From NCBI RefSeq assembly GCF_000238315.3, contig NZ_CP011924.1, positions 62,001-126,000 on the forward strand: a stretch of DNA of 64,000 nucleotides. Direction: 5' to 3'. This DNA is from Pseudoalteromonas piscicida. GTDB taxonomy: Bacteria; Pseudomonadota; Gammaproteobacteria; Enterobacterales; Alteromonadaceae. Below are positions 55,910-60,542 of this stretch, piece by piece (within the stretch, counting starts at the first letter, position 1; every line of letters starts with the position of its first letter). The position numbers were made by a program, and so were the translations under genes. The notes under the pieces are model-generated. The model searched no databases. It saw only the letters and a program-made list of their open reading frames with translations, and had not been told where the DNA came from.

Positions 55910-56235
55910 CTAACACTCTGGTGTCATATAGGTGTCGAAATAGCTCATGCTGCACGCGACTTGTTTAATGGCGGTATAGCTTTGCTCCATCGCCGCTCTT
56001 AGTAAGTTTTTATAATCGCTTCCTTTGATACTACTAACCATACAGGTTGCGCCAAAGTCTAGAAGCGCAAAATAAATAACGAGATGTAAAAACTCTCGAA
56101 TATCTCGTATGTGCCATTTAAAATTGAGCGCTTTTAATACGTTAGCTAGGTGCGATTTGTTCTTAGCGAGCCAATCAATGGCTTGGATAATTCACAGCTA
56201 GCCTGTTGCAGGCGATTTGCATGTTGAAATGACAA
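55910..56235 (-). pseudogene. Frameshifted gene remnant, unknown (faint phycobilisome/globin-like pattern)
   Basis: On the minus strand a frame with no standard start runs 93 codons from 56191 to TAG at 55910. It reads AIDWLAKNKSHL, HIRDIREFLHLVIYFALL, then LLRAAMEQSYTAIKQVACSMSYFD. A second frame just upstream, from a TTG at 56235, reads SFQHANRLQQASCEL and ends where the other takes over, so a frameshift near 56185-56195 is likely. The RDI-x-E-x-L-x-L-V-x-Y-x-x-L motif and the SYFD finish recall phycobilisome-type globin-like proteins, but this is only a pattern by eye. Gene decay is the best guess. Confidence 0.4.
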
Positions 56236-56308
56236 TGTTTGATTGGTAGGTTACTAAAAATAATAAATAAAGTTAGCTTGAATGTTGTTGTTTTTTACTT
56301 GTTGATAA

Positions 56309-57385
56309 GTGAGATATTCAAAAATTCACGCTAATGAGCTATTAGGTACTCAAAGGAATGCAGAGATGCTCTACAAAATAGAAGAACAAGCCGAAGCTTT
56401 TGAAAAGTTAGAGCCTGTAGAGTTCAAAGACTTTTCTAGTTTTGGAAAACTTGAGAAAGATCTAGAAAACTTAATTGCAAATAGCATCTTAGATGTGTTG
56501 TTTGAAGATGCTAGATTGATGCCTGTGTTTCAGGAAAGACAATGGCAAGCGGAAGCTGATATATATGCACTTAATGAAAATGGTGAATTAGTTATATTTG
56601 AATTAAAGCGTGCATCAGTTGGGAAAGATGCCGTCCATCAAGCACTAAGATATGCGCAAGACGCTGGTCAATGGAGCTACCAAAAGTTAGAACAAAAGTT
56701 CAAAGAATATAGCAAAAGCGAAATGTCGCTAGTTGAAGCTCACAGAGAGGCTTTTAGTCTTGAGCATGAATTAGATCCAAAAGAAATAAATAATAAACAA
56801 CACCTATTAGTTATCGGTAGTGCAGCCGATGAATCATTAGTATCTTCCATCGATTACTGGAAGAAAAATGGTATATCTATTGATTTCCTACCATATCGAG
56901 TTTATGAACTTGCTGGAGAAAAGTACTTTGAATTCTTTGCGCTTCCATATGATAAGCACAAGAATCCAAGTGATGTAAAAGGTGTATTATTTGATACAAA
57001 TCGTAGTTGGGATGAGAATTCTATTTGGTCGATGATGGATAATAGCCGTCTTGAGGCATATGGTGATGCGAAGAGGTTTGTTCACCATGTTCATGTAGGA
57101 GATATTGTTTTCTTCTCGCACAAATGGTGTGGCTTAATAGCTGCAGCAAAAGTAAAAGGAGAGGTTAAAGCTCCAGACAGTGAAACTTTGTATCGAGATG
57201 TAGAGTTTTTGACTCCTATTCCGAACCGGAAAGATAACAAACTGTTGGCTATGCCTTTTTCAGAAGTTAGCTCAAAAACAGGTAAAAGTTTCTTTTGGGC
57301 TAGAACTATAAAGGTCCCTTATCTAACAAAAAATGAAGCACTTGAGTTAGTCGAGGAGCTTAACAATTACTTACATCGCACATAA
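56309..57385 (+). CDS. PD-(D/E)XK nuclease-like protein with PUA/EVE-like C-terminal domain
   Basis: The 358-residue cytoplasmic protein has a nuclease-like core at about 48-120. It shows an early Glu helix (KDLENLIANS), Asp84 in AEADIYAL, and Glu98-x-Lys100 in VIFELKRA, followed by a helix with Gln (HQALRYAQ). This is the order of the PD-(D/E)XK fold, similar to NucS/DUF91-type proteins. The C-terminal part (about 260-345: VHVGDIVFFSHKWCGLIAAAKV) looks like a PUA/EVE-type nucleic-acid reader. Such pairing is typical of modified-DNA-targeting defence. The gene is AT-rich and bears an attC-like site at its end; this suggests a mobile cassette. Confidence 0.6.
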   Translation: MRYSKIHANELLGTQRNAEMLYKIEEQAEAFEKLEPVEFKDFSSFGKLEKDLENLIANSILDVLFEDARLMPVFQERQWQAEADIYALNENGELVIFELKRASVGKDAVHQALRYAQDAGQWSYQKLEQKFKEYSKSEMSLVEAHREAFSLEHELDPKEINNKQHLLVIGSAADESLVSSIDYWKKNGISIDFLPYRVYELAGEKYFEFFALPYDKHKNPSDVKGVLFDTNRSWDENSIWSMMDNSRLEAYGDAKRFVHHVHVGDIVFFSHKWCGLIAAAKVKGEVKAPDSETLYRDVEFLTPIPNRKDNKLLAMPFSEVSSKTGKSFFWARTIKVPYLTKNEALELVEELNNYLHRT

Positions 57386-57435
57386 TAAGTCAAGGCTGCC
57401 GGACTGCTTCGCTGCCGCAGCTTAACGCGTTAGGC
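57383..57435 (+). other. attC-like integron recombination site
   Basis: The sequence starts at the stop codon of the nuclease gene and ends in GTTAGGC (57429-57435), a standard R' core (G^TTRRRY). Inside, GTCAAGGCTGC pairs with GCAGCTTAAC if one G is left bulged, as in attC L''/L' arms with their extrahelical base. CGG pairs with CCG across the terminal loop. The outer R''-like ATAAT matches R' only in part, and both spacers are about 4 nt shorter than in well-known sites. The next gene begins 18 nt after R', as in cassettes. No integrase lies within the window. Confidence 0.5.
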
Positions 57436-57452
57436 ATACAAAAGAGAGTGAT

Positions 57453-57917
57453 ATGCAAAAACTAAGCTTTGCGTTAATGTTGATAGCTGTATCGTTTTCA
57501 AGTGTAGCTGGGAACGAATTTACACCTGAACAATTAATTGAAAAGGGTAAGGCGTTTGTCCAAGCTAAAAATGCGCGCCAGCAACCGAGTAGTAAGATTG
57601 AGGATATTGAAAATTATTTATCTTTGTTGTCAGACAGCTTTATTGACGAACACGTTAAATACAATTTCACTTATACCGATAAATCAAAACTCCGGCAAGA
57701 TATGATCGGAAAGCTTAAAGATGAAGTCATTAACAGCAGTATTACTATCAATGAGGTTATGACTGGCTCAAATGTCATTTTTATCAAAATGACGGAGTCT
57801 GGTAAGGTAAAGCCAGCGCATCTAGACAAAATCATTGAATACAATAAAACCAACATTGTCTCATTGGAATTCGATAAATCCGGTTTAATTAAGCGTATAC
57901 GAAGGCATCATGGTTAA
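57453..57917 (+). CDS. Small secreted protein of unknown function
   Basis: This 154-residue protein has a signal peptide of about 20 residues (…FSSVAG-NEFTPE). The mature part resembles a SnoaL/NTF2-like helper in layout: helices (TPEQLIEKGKAFVQAKN, IEDIENYLSLLSDSFID), then strands (SSITINEVMTGSNVIFIKMTESG, TNIVSLEFDKSGLIKRIRR). That is a structural guess only. The gene starts 18 nt after the attC-like R' core, so it could be the next cassette. A hairpin-like TGCCTT...AAGGCA and GTTAGGA follow its stop. Confidence 0.55.
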   Translation: MQKLSFALMLIAVSFSSVAGNEFTPEQLIEKGKAFVQAKNARQQPSSKIEDIENYLSLLSDSFIDEHVKYNFTYTDKSKLRQDMIGKLKDEVINSSITINEVMTGSNVIFIKMTESGKVKPAHLDKIIEYNKTNIVSLEFDKSGLIKRIRRHHG

Positions 57918-58058
57918 AAGTGTGCCTTTGAGCAAGGCATTGGTTAGGAAGTTATGCGTAAGTTTTTATATGTTGATTTTTTGTTTCTCCGCTGCCAGTA
58001 TAGTCGTTAGCTAGTTTCCATTTTAGAAACTTTAAACAATGATTATCAAGGAAATAAA

Positions 58059-58244
58059 ATGAAACTGAGCCTTAAGAAAAGGAACATGAAAGTACTCAAT
58101 AAAGATAATAGCCAAATAGCTAAAAATGTTACTTTGCAAATTGCTGGTGGTTATAATCGAGGTTATACAGACTTTTATTTTTGTGGGACAACGCATTGTC
58201 CATCTGCATATCCAGAGTGTGAAACGATGGGGTGTAACGCATAA
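58059..58244 (+). CDS. Orphan double-glycine-leader, four-cysteine peptide (RiPP/bacteriocin-like precursor)
   Basis: The 61-residue product has AAGGAAAT upstream. Residues 1-31 look like a leader: basic start (MKLSLKKRN), KVLNKDNSQIAKN, then TLQIAGG ending in Gly-Gly. This is the cleavage signal of peptidase-containing ABC exporters. The core, residues 32-61, is short and Cys/Tyr/Gly-rich with Cys at 42, 47, 54 and 59 and a C-terminal NA. The leader recalls lanthipeptide-like orphan precursors of marine gammaproteobacteria and Bacteroidetes. No modification enzyme, exporter or immunity gene is adjacent. Disulfide-bonded bacteriocin, RiPP or signalling peptide are alternatives. Confidence 0.6.
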   Translation: MKLSLKKRNMKVLNKDNSQIAKNVTLQIAGGYNRGYTDFYFCGTTHCPSAYPECETMGCNA

Positions 58245-58273
58245 CCTTTCCCCATAGTCAGCGGTTGCTCATC

Positions 58274-58311
58274 AATTCATAGGTTTGTTCTGAATCTCAA
58301 ACCTGTGAATT
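58274..58311 (+). terminator. Terminator of the double-glycine peptide
   Basis: AATTCATAGGTTTG (58274-58287) pairs with CAAACCTGTGAATT (58298-58311), 14 bp with one U-G wobble and a 10-nt loop. A T-run follows about 20 nt later. It marks the peptide as a monocistronic unit. Confidence 0.6.
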
Positions 58312-58509
58312 GTAATTCAGTGCATTCCTTTTTTATAAATACCTTCCAAAGTGCTTTTGAGTTTATTTGCTACAACACCATAAAAATCACAACAAGCAGA
58401 GATTGACTCTCTAGATGCTTTAAATACACGCATCTTTTGTATTCAGGGCTTTGTATCGAACACTCTTGTTGTTGTACGACTTTAACGTTTTACTCTTTTT
58501 TGATTGGTA

Positions 58510-58524
58510 TGTTATATTGTATCA
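58510..58524. promoter_or_regulatory. Candidate Zur/Fur-type operator
   Basis: TGTTATA-T-TGTATCA (58510-58524) is a 7-1-7 imperfect palindrome (5 of 7 positions paired) and close to the TGTTATA...TATAACA core of zinc-uptake-regulator boxes. It is placed 31 bp upstream of the MerC-like start. MerC-like and DUF1826 genes are often found in zinc-starvation regulons, which supports the reading. Confidence 0.4.
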
Positions 58525-58554
58525 ATTGTGGGCGAGCATGACAAAGGAGAAAGC

Positions 58555-58932
58555 GTGAACGCAAAAGTACAGTCGTTTGGAGACAAGGCAGCAATTGGGT
58601 TATCTATGCTGTGCTTAGTCCATTGTTTAATATTACCTTTTTTATTATTTGTACTTCCTCCCTTTGCGGGTTTACTAGCGCTCTCTGATGAAGCTTTTCA
58701 CGAATGGTTACTCATAGCCGTGCTACCCATTAGCGTATTGGCCCTTGGATTTGGCTATTTGCGGCATAAGTCAAGTCTTGTCGTGGGCTTGGGGTTAGTG
58801 GGCTGCACATTCTTGGTGCTAGCAACTATTTTAGGTGAACAACGCGGAGAAACCTTGTTCACAGTGCTTGGCTCTATACTCATCTCCTGCGCTCATCTTC
58901 GAAACTATGCGCTGCGTCGCAATTTTCACTAA
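58555..58932 (+). CDS. MerC-domain membrane protein
   Basis: I chose the GTG at 58555 (125 residues), because AAGGAG is 6 nt upstream; an upstream in-frame start adds unlikely residues over the promoter box. The MerC pattern is visible: KAAIGLSMLCLVHCLILPFLLFVLPPF, then three more hydrophobic segments. MerC proteins move metal ions across the inner membrane. The Cys-x-x-x-His (CLVHC) pair suits metal handling. It is the first gene of a three-gene transcript with DUF1826 (23 bp) and EEP (12 bp). Confidence 0.75.
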   Translation: MNAKVQSFGDKAAIGLSMLCLVHCLILPFLLFVLPPFAGLLALSDEAFHEWLLIAVLPISVLALGFGYLRHKSSLVVGLGLVGCTFLVLATILGEQRGETLFTVLGSILISCAHLRNYALRRNFH

Positions 58933-58955
58933 ATAAAACCTTATTTGGAGTTACT

Positions 58956-59594
58956 ATGAATAGCCTTATGCCCTTAGAGCCGTTGCTTGAGGTGGACTCA
59001 GTGCATCATCAGCAGTCAGAACACGCTACCGTGTTAACCAAGATTTATGAGCCCGACACCAATATTGTGATTTGGCAACATGCATTATCACCTGCTTTGA
59101 AAGCAGAGTTTGGTCGCTACTTAGAAGCAGCAAAAGAGCTAGAATTAGCGCTACAAATTGCGACTAGCAATATCACCTGTGAAGTTAGTGAGCCGTTAAA
59201 GCGGCTGAATTTTAGCGATGCGATGGTGGCGCATATTATTGAAATAGTAGATATGTTTAGCTGCTTATTTGAACTTCGCGTCGTTGGTTTTCGGTTAAAA
59301 ATGCTCAAGACTGCAATGTGCCCGAAATTTCATGTTGATAAAGTACCTGTACGACTGGTGACAACACTAGCTGGCGCTGGCAGTGAGTGGCTTAGAAACC
59401 AGCATGTATCAAGGGATGGCGACAAACTGACTGTGGCCTCGGAAGCAGACGCAATACAGCTTGCCTGTGGGGATGTGGCATTATTAAAAGGTGAGCGTTG
59501 GGATGGTAATGAAGGCCGTGGCTTAGTGCATCGCTCACCAGCGGTAGTAATAGGAGAAAAACGATTGCTACTGACGTTAGATTTTATCGCCTAG
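58956..59594 (+). CDS. DUF1826 protein, possible iron-dependent-oxygenase-like
   Basis: The 212-residue protein has the family core CPKFHVDKVPVRLVTTLAGAGSEWL (His126, Asp128), then CGDVALLKGERWDGNEGRGLVHRSP with a third His. A HxD...H arrangement in a cupin-like fold is what one sees in Fe(II)/2-oxoglutarate oxygenases. Activity is unproven for DUF1826. The family is often found next to zinc-regulated genes. Second gene of the operon. Confidence 0.75.
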   Translation: MNSLMPLEPLLEVDSVHHQQSEHATVLTKIYEPDTNIVIWQHALSPALKAEFGRYLEAAKELELALQIATSNITCEVSEPLKRLNFSDAMVAHIIEIVDMFSCLFELRVVGFRLKMLKTAMCPKFHVDKVPVRLVTTLAGAGSEWLRNQHVSRDGDKLTVASEADAIQLACGDVALLKGERWDGNEGRGLVHRSPAVVIGEKRLLLTLDFIA

Positions 59595-59606
59595 ATTGGA
59601 TTCATT

Positions 59607-60542
59607 ATGACAACAAAATTAACTGCATTTGCATTTAGCGCTATTTTTAGCCTCTCGCTATTGGGATGCCAGTCGGAGCCTTCAAATATCGGTTCCTCCG
59701 CGGTAAGCGGCCAAGCAACCGTCGCTCCGCTTAAAATTGCGACTTGGAACATGGAGCATTTAGCATATCCATCGAGTGCAGGATGTAGGCCTCGTGACGA
59801 GCAGGAGATAAGCGCGCTGCGCGATTATGCAAAAGGGCTTAATGCAGACGTTATTGCGCTGCAGGAAGTCGCATCGGTTAAGGCATTAGAGCAGGTCTTT
59901 CCAAGTAGTGAATGGCAATTACTGATTTCAAGTCGAGCTAATAGCACGACGTACGACTGTAGAGGAAGTGGCAATCTGTCTACACAGCAGAAAACCGCGT
60001 TTGCGATTAGAAATAACCTAGTCCCAAGCAAAGTGGATAACGTGAGCGAACTTAGCGTGGATGTTGAAGGATTAAGACATGGTCTAGTTGTGGCCTTAGA
60101 TACTCAGTTTGGTGAGCTTTCAGTGCTTAATGTTCACCTTAAAAGTGGCTGTTTTGTTGATAACTACTCGACTTCGGATAAAAAGGCCTGTCGATTGTTG
60201 GCAGATCAGTTACCAGTACTTAAATCTTGGTTGGAGAAACATGCAAATAGCAACACCATTGTGTTGGGTGACTTTAATCATCGTTTAAGCCATGGCGACA
60301 ATCAATTTTGGCAGCAATTAACCAAGCATCAAAATAATGCTTCTGTACCTTTGGTAAACGCAACTAAAACACTGACAGGTTGTCACCCACGTTACCCTGT
60401 GCCGATTGACCATATATTGCTGAGCAACAAACTTGCAAACACGGTGAAATTCGACCCCAGCGTACACTTTTTTGCGGATATGTCTGAAGAGAAAATGCTC
60501 AGCGATCATTGCGCTATTTCGGTGTCAATTAGCATGCGTTAA
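59607..60542 (+). CDS. Lipoprotein endonuclease/exonuclease/phosphatase-family enzyme
   Basis: The 311-residue protein has a lipobox (SLSLLGCQS) and the EEP motifs in order: IATWNMEHL, ADVIALQEV, SVLNVHLKSGC, NTIVLGDFNH, VPIDHILLS and SDHCAIS. These form the metal-dependent phosphodiester-cleaving site. It is anchored outside the cytoplasm, where it could break down DNA or phosphorylated nutrients. Third gene of the probable zinc-regulated operon: cleaving extracellular nucleic acid under metal stress is plausible but inferred. Confidence 0.8.
   Translation: MTTKLTAFAFSAIFSLSLLGCQSEPSNIGSSAVSGQATVAPLKIATWNMEHLAYPSSAGCRPRDEQEISALRDYAKGLNADVIALQEVASVKALEQVFPSSEWQLLISSRANSTTYDCRGSGNLSTQQKTAFAIRNNLVPSKVDNVSELSVDVEGLRHGLVVALDTQFGELSVLNVHLKSGCFVDNYSTSDKKACRLLADQLPVLKSWLEKHANSNTIVLGDFNHRLSHGDNQFWQQLTKHQNNASVPLVNATKTLTGCHPRYPVPIDHILLSNKLANTVKFDPSVHFFADMSEEKMLSDHCAISVSISMR

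Follow-up and report, generated by a model that had tools for sequence, protein, structure and literature searches.

A solitary double-glycine peptide gene of Pseudoalteromonas piscicida is probably a class I lanthipeptide precursor served by a distant LanB/LanC and exporter locus

We propose that a small solitary gene (Table 1) in a 64,000-nucleotide stretch of the Pseudoalteromonas piscicida genome, the whole of which we call the window, is an orphan class I lanthipeptide precursor (LanA) that is matured in trans by a distant set of LanB, LanC, an ABC exporter with a C39 peptidase domain (C39-ABC) and HlyD, a reading to which we give a probability of roughly 0.86. It is built on direct observation of an open reading frame under selection, of a leader family, of a single machinery locus, of the co-occurrence of precursors and LanB among genomes, and of the order of Ser/Thr before Cys in the cores.

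The other parts of this reading, from the modification and the pattern of rings to cleavage, export and action in trans, we infer, and they would proceed as follows. Judging from the families involved, the window gene would be translated from a single-gene unit, and its LxLxKx5L leader would recruit the only LanB of the genome. Ser and Thr residues of the core would be dehydrated by LanB using glutamyl-tRNA, and LanC would link each Cys with a dehydro residue lying N-terminal to it, producing up to four small (methyl)lanthionine rings, of which T37-C42, T44 or T45-C47, S49-C54 and T56-C59 are the likely ones. The C39 domain of the ABC exporter would cut after Gly31 and the peptide would exit via the ABC/HlyD channel. 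About 20 other precursors, on both contigs, would be served by the same LanB/LanC/exporter set. As the core of the window peptide has been held constant, our guess is that the product serves as an extracellular signal or a narrow antagonist.

Table 1. Features of the precursor gene in the window (positions counted from its first letter) and the maturation and export locus elsewhere in the genome
Feature	Position	Strand	Basis
Ribosome binding site AAGGAA	58048..58053	+	sequence; five bases 5' of ATG; unchanged in 6/6 aligned genomes
Precursor peptide gene (LanA-type), 61 codons plus stop	58059..58244	+	ORF translation, giving a 61-aa peptide
Leader, residues 1-31, basic, L3-x-L5-x-K7-x5-L13 motif, ends TLQIAGG (GG end)	58059..58151	+	
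Core, residues 32-61, with Cys42, Cys47, Cys54, Cys59	58152..58241	+	
15-bp hairpin, possible terminator	58273..58312	+	z -4.2, 0/200 shuffles equally good
Locus, in order: LanB, LanC, precursor (opposite strand), C39-peptidase ABC exporter, HlyD	G000:C1 3,187,559-3,195,782		

Translation confirmed the double-glycine leader and the four-cysteine core that an earlier note on this DNA had described, and the good ribosome site that it had claimed is indeed in place; the leader is furthermore an exact fit to LxLxKx5L. Pfam and NCBIfam models, including the class I lanthipeptide leader model NF038153, gave no match to the window peptide at E up to 10. None of the five sister precursors tested reached the NF038153 cut-off of 22 (one sister scored 12.2 bits); that model describes one curated leader type, and class I lanthipeptide precursors are not defined by it.

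Of 108 Pseudoalteromonas genomes, its own included, 12 contain a match to the window peptide with E no higher than 1e-6. Apart from the gene itself, five of these genomes carry orthologues that are 93-100% identical, five carry relatives at 49-53% identity, with an additional relative at 37% in two of the five, and one carries a decayed piece. The right-hand gene context is conserved at the five orthologues. Of these orthologue loci, the one in G034 shares its sequence over 3183 bp, without a difference, with Pseudoalteromonas flavipulchra ATCC BAA-314, and the one in G071 is identical to Pseudoalteromonas sp. HM-SA03. When the six genomes are aligned, the core has seven variable codons, all synonymous and none nonsynonymous, and the leader has five with synonymous change only and five with nonsynonymous change. 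As some 76% of random substitutions in the core would be nonsynonymous, which puts the chance of seven silent ones at about 0.00004 if they are independent, the window ORF is a real gene and not a chance one. In an alignment of eight sequences, including four with identities near 50%, C42, G43, T44, C47, P48, S49, E53, C54, E55 and T56 are invariant, and C59 and T37 are variable; this alignment omits L073 and L074 (37% identity, with a different Cys pattern) as well as L062, L064, L068 and L129/L130, which repeat the cores of included members. The core relative L072 (G046:C188:6332-6415) has two in-frame stops within the match and is probably a decayed copy.

The surroundings of the gene agree with the earlier note in that no exporter, cyclase or immunity gene is recognisable among the four neighbouring ORFs tested. 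One of them weakly matches NucS, another (154 aa) falls into no convincing family, and the remaining two belong to the MerC family and to DUF1826. Its claim that the gene has a terminator of its own holds only in part. The hairpin behind the gene is strong (Table 1), but the T run downstream starts at 58329, 16 nt past the stem, and a terminator scan of 57900-58600 called no site. An Rfam search of 56000-60000 returned nothing at the gathering threshold. To the left of the precursor there is a sharp boundary at about 57951-57964, beyond which the relatives carry different DNA, giving a mosaic left flank. The sequence at about 57386-57437, following the NucS-like gene, may resemble an attC site, and together with the mosaic flank it raised the idea of an integron; a DNA search found no second copy of it, and the two integrase matches over cut-off both lie far from the window gene. 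A candidate second GG-peptide at L088:5901-6326 was rejected as a 141-aa protein without a GG end.

The earlier note had suggested looking through the genome for peptides with the same leader. A leader model built from ten leader-bearing ORFs marks 23 places in the genome, of which 22 are intact ORFs of 47-70 residues (two identical pairs among them) and the 23rd has an internal stop. Nineteen of the intact ORFs are on contig 1 and three on contig 2. The common leader of the 22 is approximately MKLxLxKKxxKxL...TPxIAGG, with LxLxKx5L present exactly in 12 and in a relaxed form in 19, and the cores that follow it vary in length, Cys number and sequence. Three near-identical same-leader ORFs in tandem (L033, L034 and L035; G000:C1 3254736-3255400) have a core without Cys, so thioethers are impossible for some members of the family; their products could be dehydrated but could not undergo ring closure. 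Another tandem duplication, with a period of 1,170 bp, occupies G000:C1 3485181-3486524 (L023, L024; L014) and repeats an identical precursor together with an identical 153-aa ORF, which by eye looks like a cyclic-nucleotide-binding regulator.

Upstream of the precursors there is no convincing motif that would show their co-regulation. Among 19 of the 22 intact precursors, the set that remains once three near-identical copies are removed, shared 12-mers were no better than those of six shuffled sets, and motifs of 16 and 20 nucleotides came out slightly above the shuffles, with four runs on the real set against two per shuffle and at no fixed distance.

The search for a C39 ABC transporter and for LanB that the earlier note had also suggested yielded one C39 domain match and one LanB match in the whole genome, both at the same distant locus (Table 1). 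Measured along the contig, 3.07 Mb separate the window gene from this locus (1.18 Mb should the contig be circular), and 20 of the 22 intact precursors are more than 15 kb from it, the other two being nearer than 15 kb. The proposal that the machinery is encoded elsewhere, or shared by scattered precursors, is therefore well matched by 22 leader ORFs and a single LanB/LanC/C39-ABC/HlyD locus at least 1.1 Mb away. The LanB is an ORF of 1054 aa that scores over cut-off with PF04738 and PF14028 (Lant_dehydr_N, 436 bits; Lant_dehydr_C, 213 bits) and aligns with NisB and two other solved dehydratases across about residues 23-910. The LanC scores 131 bits with PF05147, and its HG, CYG and CHG motifs align with NisC. 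We take these motifs to hold the ligands of the zinc (metal) site, in which case the LanC would be of the Cys-Cys-His type. A genome search with PF13575, the LanM domain, gave 0 matches, as did its control.

Across the 108 Pseudoalteromonas genomes, LanB is present in 51 and precursor matches (E up to 1e-4) in the identical 51. The LanB match above 300 bits is single in 49 of the 51, and there are two in G021 and in G076. When all candidates were scored, the 15 genomes with matches had from 1 (G016) to 75 (G026) precursor matches each; these numbers count matches, not every one of which has been confirmed as an intact ORF. In G034 a single LanB match goes with 21 precursor matches. We also took a sample of the family, 295 genomes that overlap with the genus search; here absence is less firm, since at most 21 candidates per genome were scored. 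The sample gave precursor matches in 25 genomes from 11 of 52 genera. All 25 are among the 33 genomes with LanB and none was found in the other 262; these co-occurrence figures, like those of the genus, are inflated by the shared ancestry of related species, as the counts ignore kinship. Within the family sample, genus g14 was the one group outside Pseudoalteromonas seen to have large precursor numbers (G120 at least 14, G167 28, G200 29 and G228 23), and the expansion is therefore not confined to Pseudoalteromonas. In the remaining nine genera the number per genome is 1-3, in some cases with matches close to LanB (for example in G201 and G320), which may mean an ordinary cluster layout there. 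Eight family genomes have LanB only. In seven of these the LanB is weak or partial (up to 122 bits). G361, the eighth, combines a full LanB with no precursor match by the leader model, all 39 of its candidates having been scored, and may have precursors with another leader.

The earlier note had left it undecided whether the exported peptide would be modified or disulfide-bonded, and the evidence supports the former, with lanthionine favoured over plain disulfides. A double-glycine bacteriocin or signal peptide that leaves through the same C39-ABC exporter with two plain disulfides, and with no modification by LanB or LanC, would suit a GG leader, four Cys and a genome that has a C39 exporter, and we nonetheless regard it as improbable. 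The leader of the window peptide resembles that of the precursor located between lanC and the exporter gene and has the class I LxLxKx5L motif, and precursor matches were found solely in LanB-bearing genomes. Lanthionine needs one Ser or Thr per Cys, usually on the N-side. All four Cys of the window peptide have an N-side Ser/Thr of their own (T37, T44/T45, S49 and T56), as have 58 of the 64 Cys in the leader family of its genome, where shuffles with Cys held fixed average 49.5 and 3 of 5000 are as high. For 40 precursors of our own choosing, drawn from 16 other genomes and comprising 38 distinct cores, the figure is 134 of 144, against a shuffle mean of 109.3 and 0 of 5000 as high. Counted on the C-side, the own genome gives 40 of 64 (shuffle mean 36.9, 806/5000) and the other genomes 104 of 144 (shuffle mean 88.8, 1/5000); the C-side enrichment is the weaker one and is not clear in the own genome, but given its presence in the other genomes the N-side direction is favoured rather than proven. 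The Cys number is moreover odd in 14 of 18 Cys-bearing distinct cores of the own genome and in 24 of 38 from other genomes, to which plain intramolecular disulfides are poorly suited. Taken as sequence patterns, the order of Ser/Thr and the odd Cys counts favour thioether rings and do not amount to proof of them.

Class I modification could itself take a mixed form, in which some residues are merely dehydrated, some Cys are dethiolated and few rings form. The title of one paper names dethiolation by PsfB of Pseudoalteromonas, and the leader family does include members without Cys; set against this are the invariance of three of the four Cys and of most Ser/Thr partners in the alignment of eight sequences, and the intact motifs of LanC, and we hold this sub-case to be rather unlikely. 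That the window gene is what remains of a former cluster now in decay, or a mere accidental ORF, could be argued from its isolation from the machinery and from the family place with an internal stop in the same genome, and it is hardly credible, barring a constraint at the RNA level, for a gene with protein-level conservation of the core amid synonymous change and with five orthologues in a conserved right-hand context. An orphan class I precursor matured in trans is thus the reading that we retain, and it can be placed beside systems already described.

Wang et al., as cited in PMC12819058 and PMC10885120, reportedly described pseudorosins A-C of P. flavipulchra S16, and their enzyme PsfB, in 2023. 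The LanB of the window genome is probably the PsfB orthologue, and the link to P. flavipulchra runs through G034, with its identical orthologue locus, its one LanB match and its many precursor matches. Pseudorosins A-C are three class I lanthipeptides of P. flavipulchra S16 (PMC12819058, in excerpt) and have genus and enzyme class in common with the window system. The Pci peptide of Pseudoalteromonas citrea DSM 8771, modified in E. coli by heterologous expression (PMC9993889, in excerpt), is likewise class I and of the same genus as the window peptide; it was described from a gene cluster and is compared here by description only. With pseudorosins A-C and the Pci peptide already published as class I lanthipeptides, the earlier note goes too far in calling this an uncharacterised system of the genus.

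The closest parallel in layout is that of the class II enzymes ProcM and SyncM, with 29 and 79 precursors whose genes can lie scattered (PMC10783134, in excerpt). The prochlorosins of cyanobacteria and the synechococsins share with the window system one enzyme for many GG-leader precursors that are dispersed singly or in tandem; in the present case the matches number as many as 75. The window genome itself has many scattered precursors per enzyme set, with 22 intact ORFs to one LanB and one C39 domain, a service that they would share. The differences are those of chemistry and of sequence. Prochlorosins have a LanM and Nif11-type leaders, whereas the window system has separate LanB and LanC and a short LxLxKx5L leader. 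The cyclase zinc site of prochlorosin synthetases is of the Cys-Cys-Cys type (PMC11251773, in excerpt), unlike the LanC of the window genome, which has a C, C-H pattern as in NisC. Finally, prochlorosins have hypervariable cores, whereas the window core is conserved among near relatives. Class I LanAs of Bacteroidetes have LxLxKx5L leaders, many of them GG-ended, and often a C39 protease in the cluster (PMC7268733, in excerpt), and so share leader motif, GG end, LanB with LanC and C39 protease with the window system; as far as that excerpt goes, they were picked up inside a set distance from the cyclase gene, in contrast to most of the precursors described here, whose host is Pseudoalteromonas. 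Our literature search, which left most subscription journals outside its scope, found no class I system with dispersed precursors, and in the parts of the sources covered such a layout was described only for class II prochlorosins. The name pseudorosin may echo prochlorosin, in which case the authors of that name may have noticed dispersed precursors.

In all likelihood the window peptide adds a new member to the class I lanthipeptide precursors. A class I enzyme set accompanied by as many as 75 dispersed precursor matches, as seen in half of Pseudoalteromonas and in one or more other genera, looks like a new form of a familiar layout. We consider it likely that Pseudoalteromonas and at least one further genus (g14) possess a class I counterpart of the prochlorosins, in which one promiscuous LanB/LanC/C39-exporter set serves up to about 75 dispersed single-gene precursors, and in which selection has fixed the cores of some of these, that of the window included, which would therefore have a defined extracellular target. 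A large genome-mining study capped the distance from precursor to cyclase (PMC7268733, in excerpt), and with such a limit most of these Pseudoalteromonas precursors would be missed. Whether individual peptides have a fixed job is a question still open for prochlorosins (PMC11251773, in excerpt), and conservation of the core may here serve to select those precursors that, like that of the window, probably have one. If it is true that one LanB/LanC pair handles up to 75 cores, nature would here offer a promiscuous class I system from which a great many new peptides could come.
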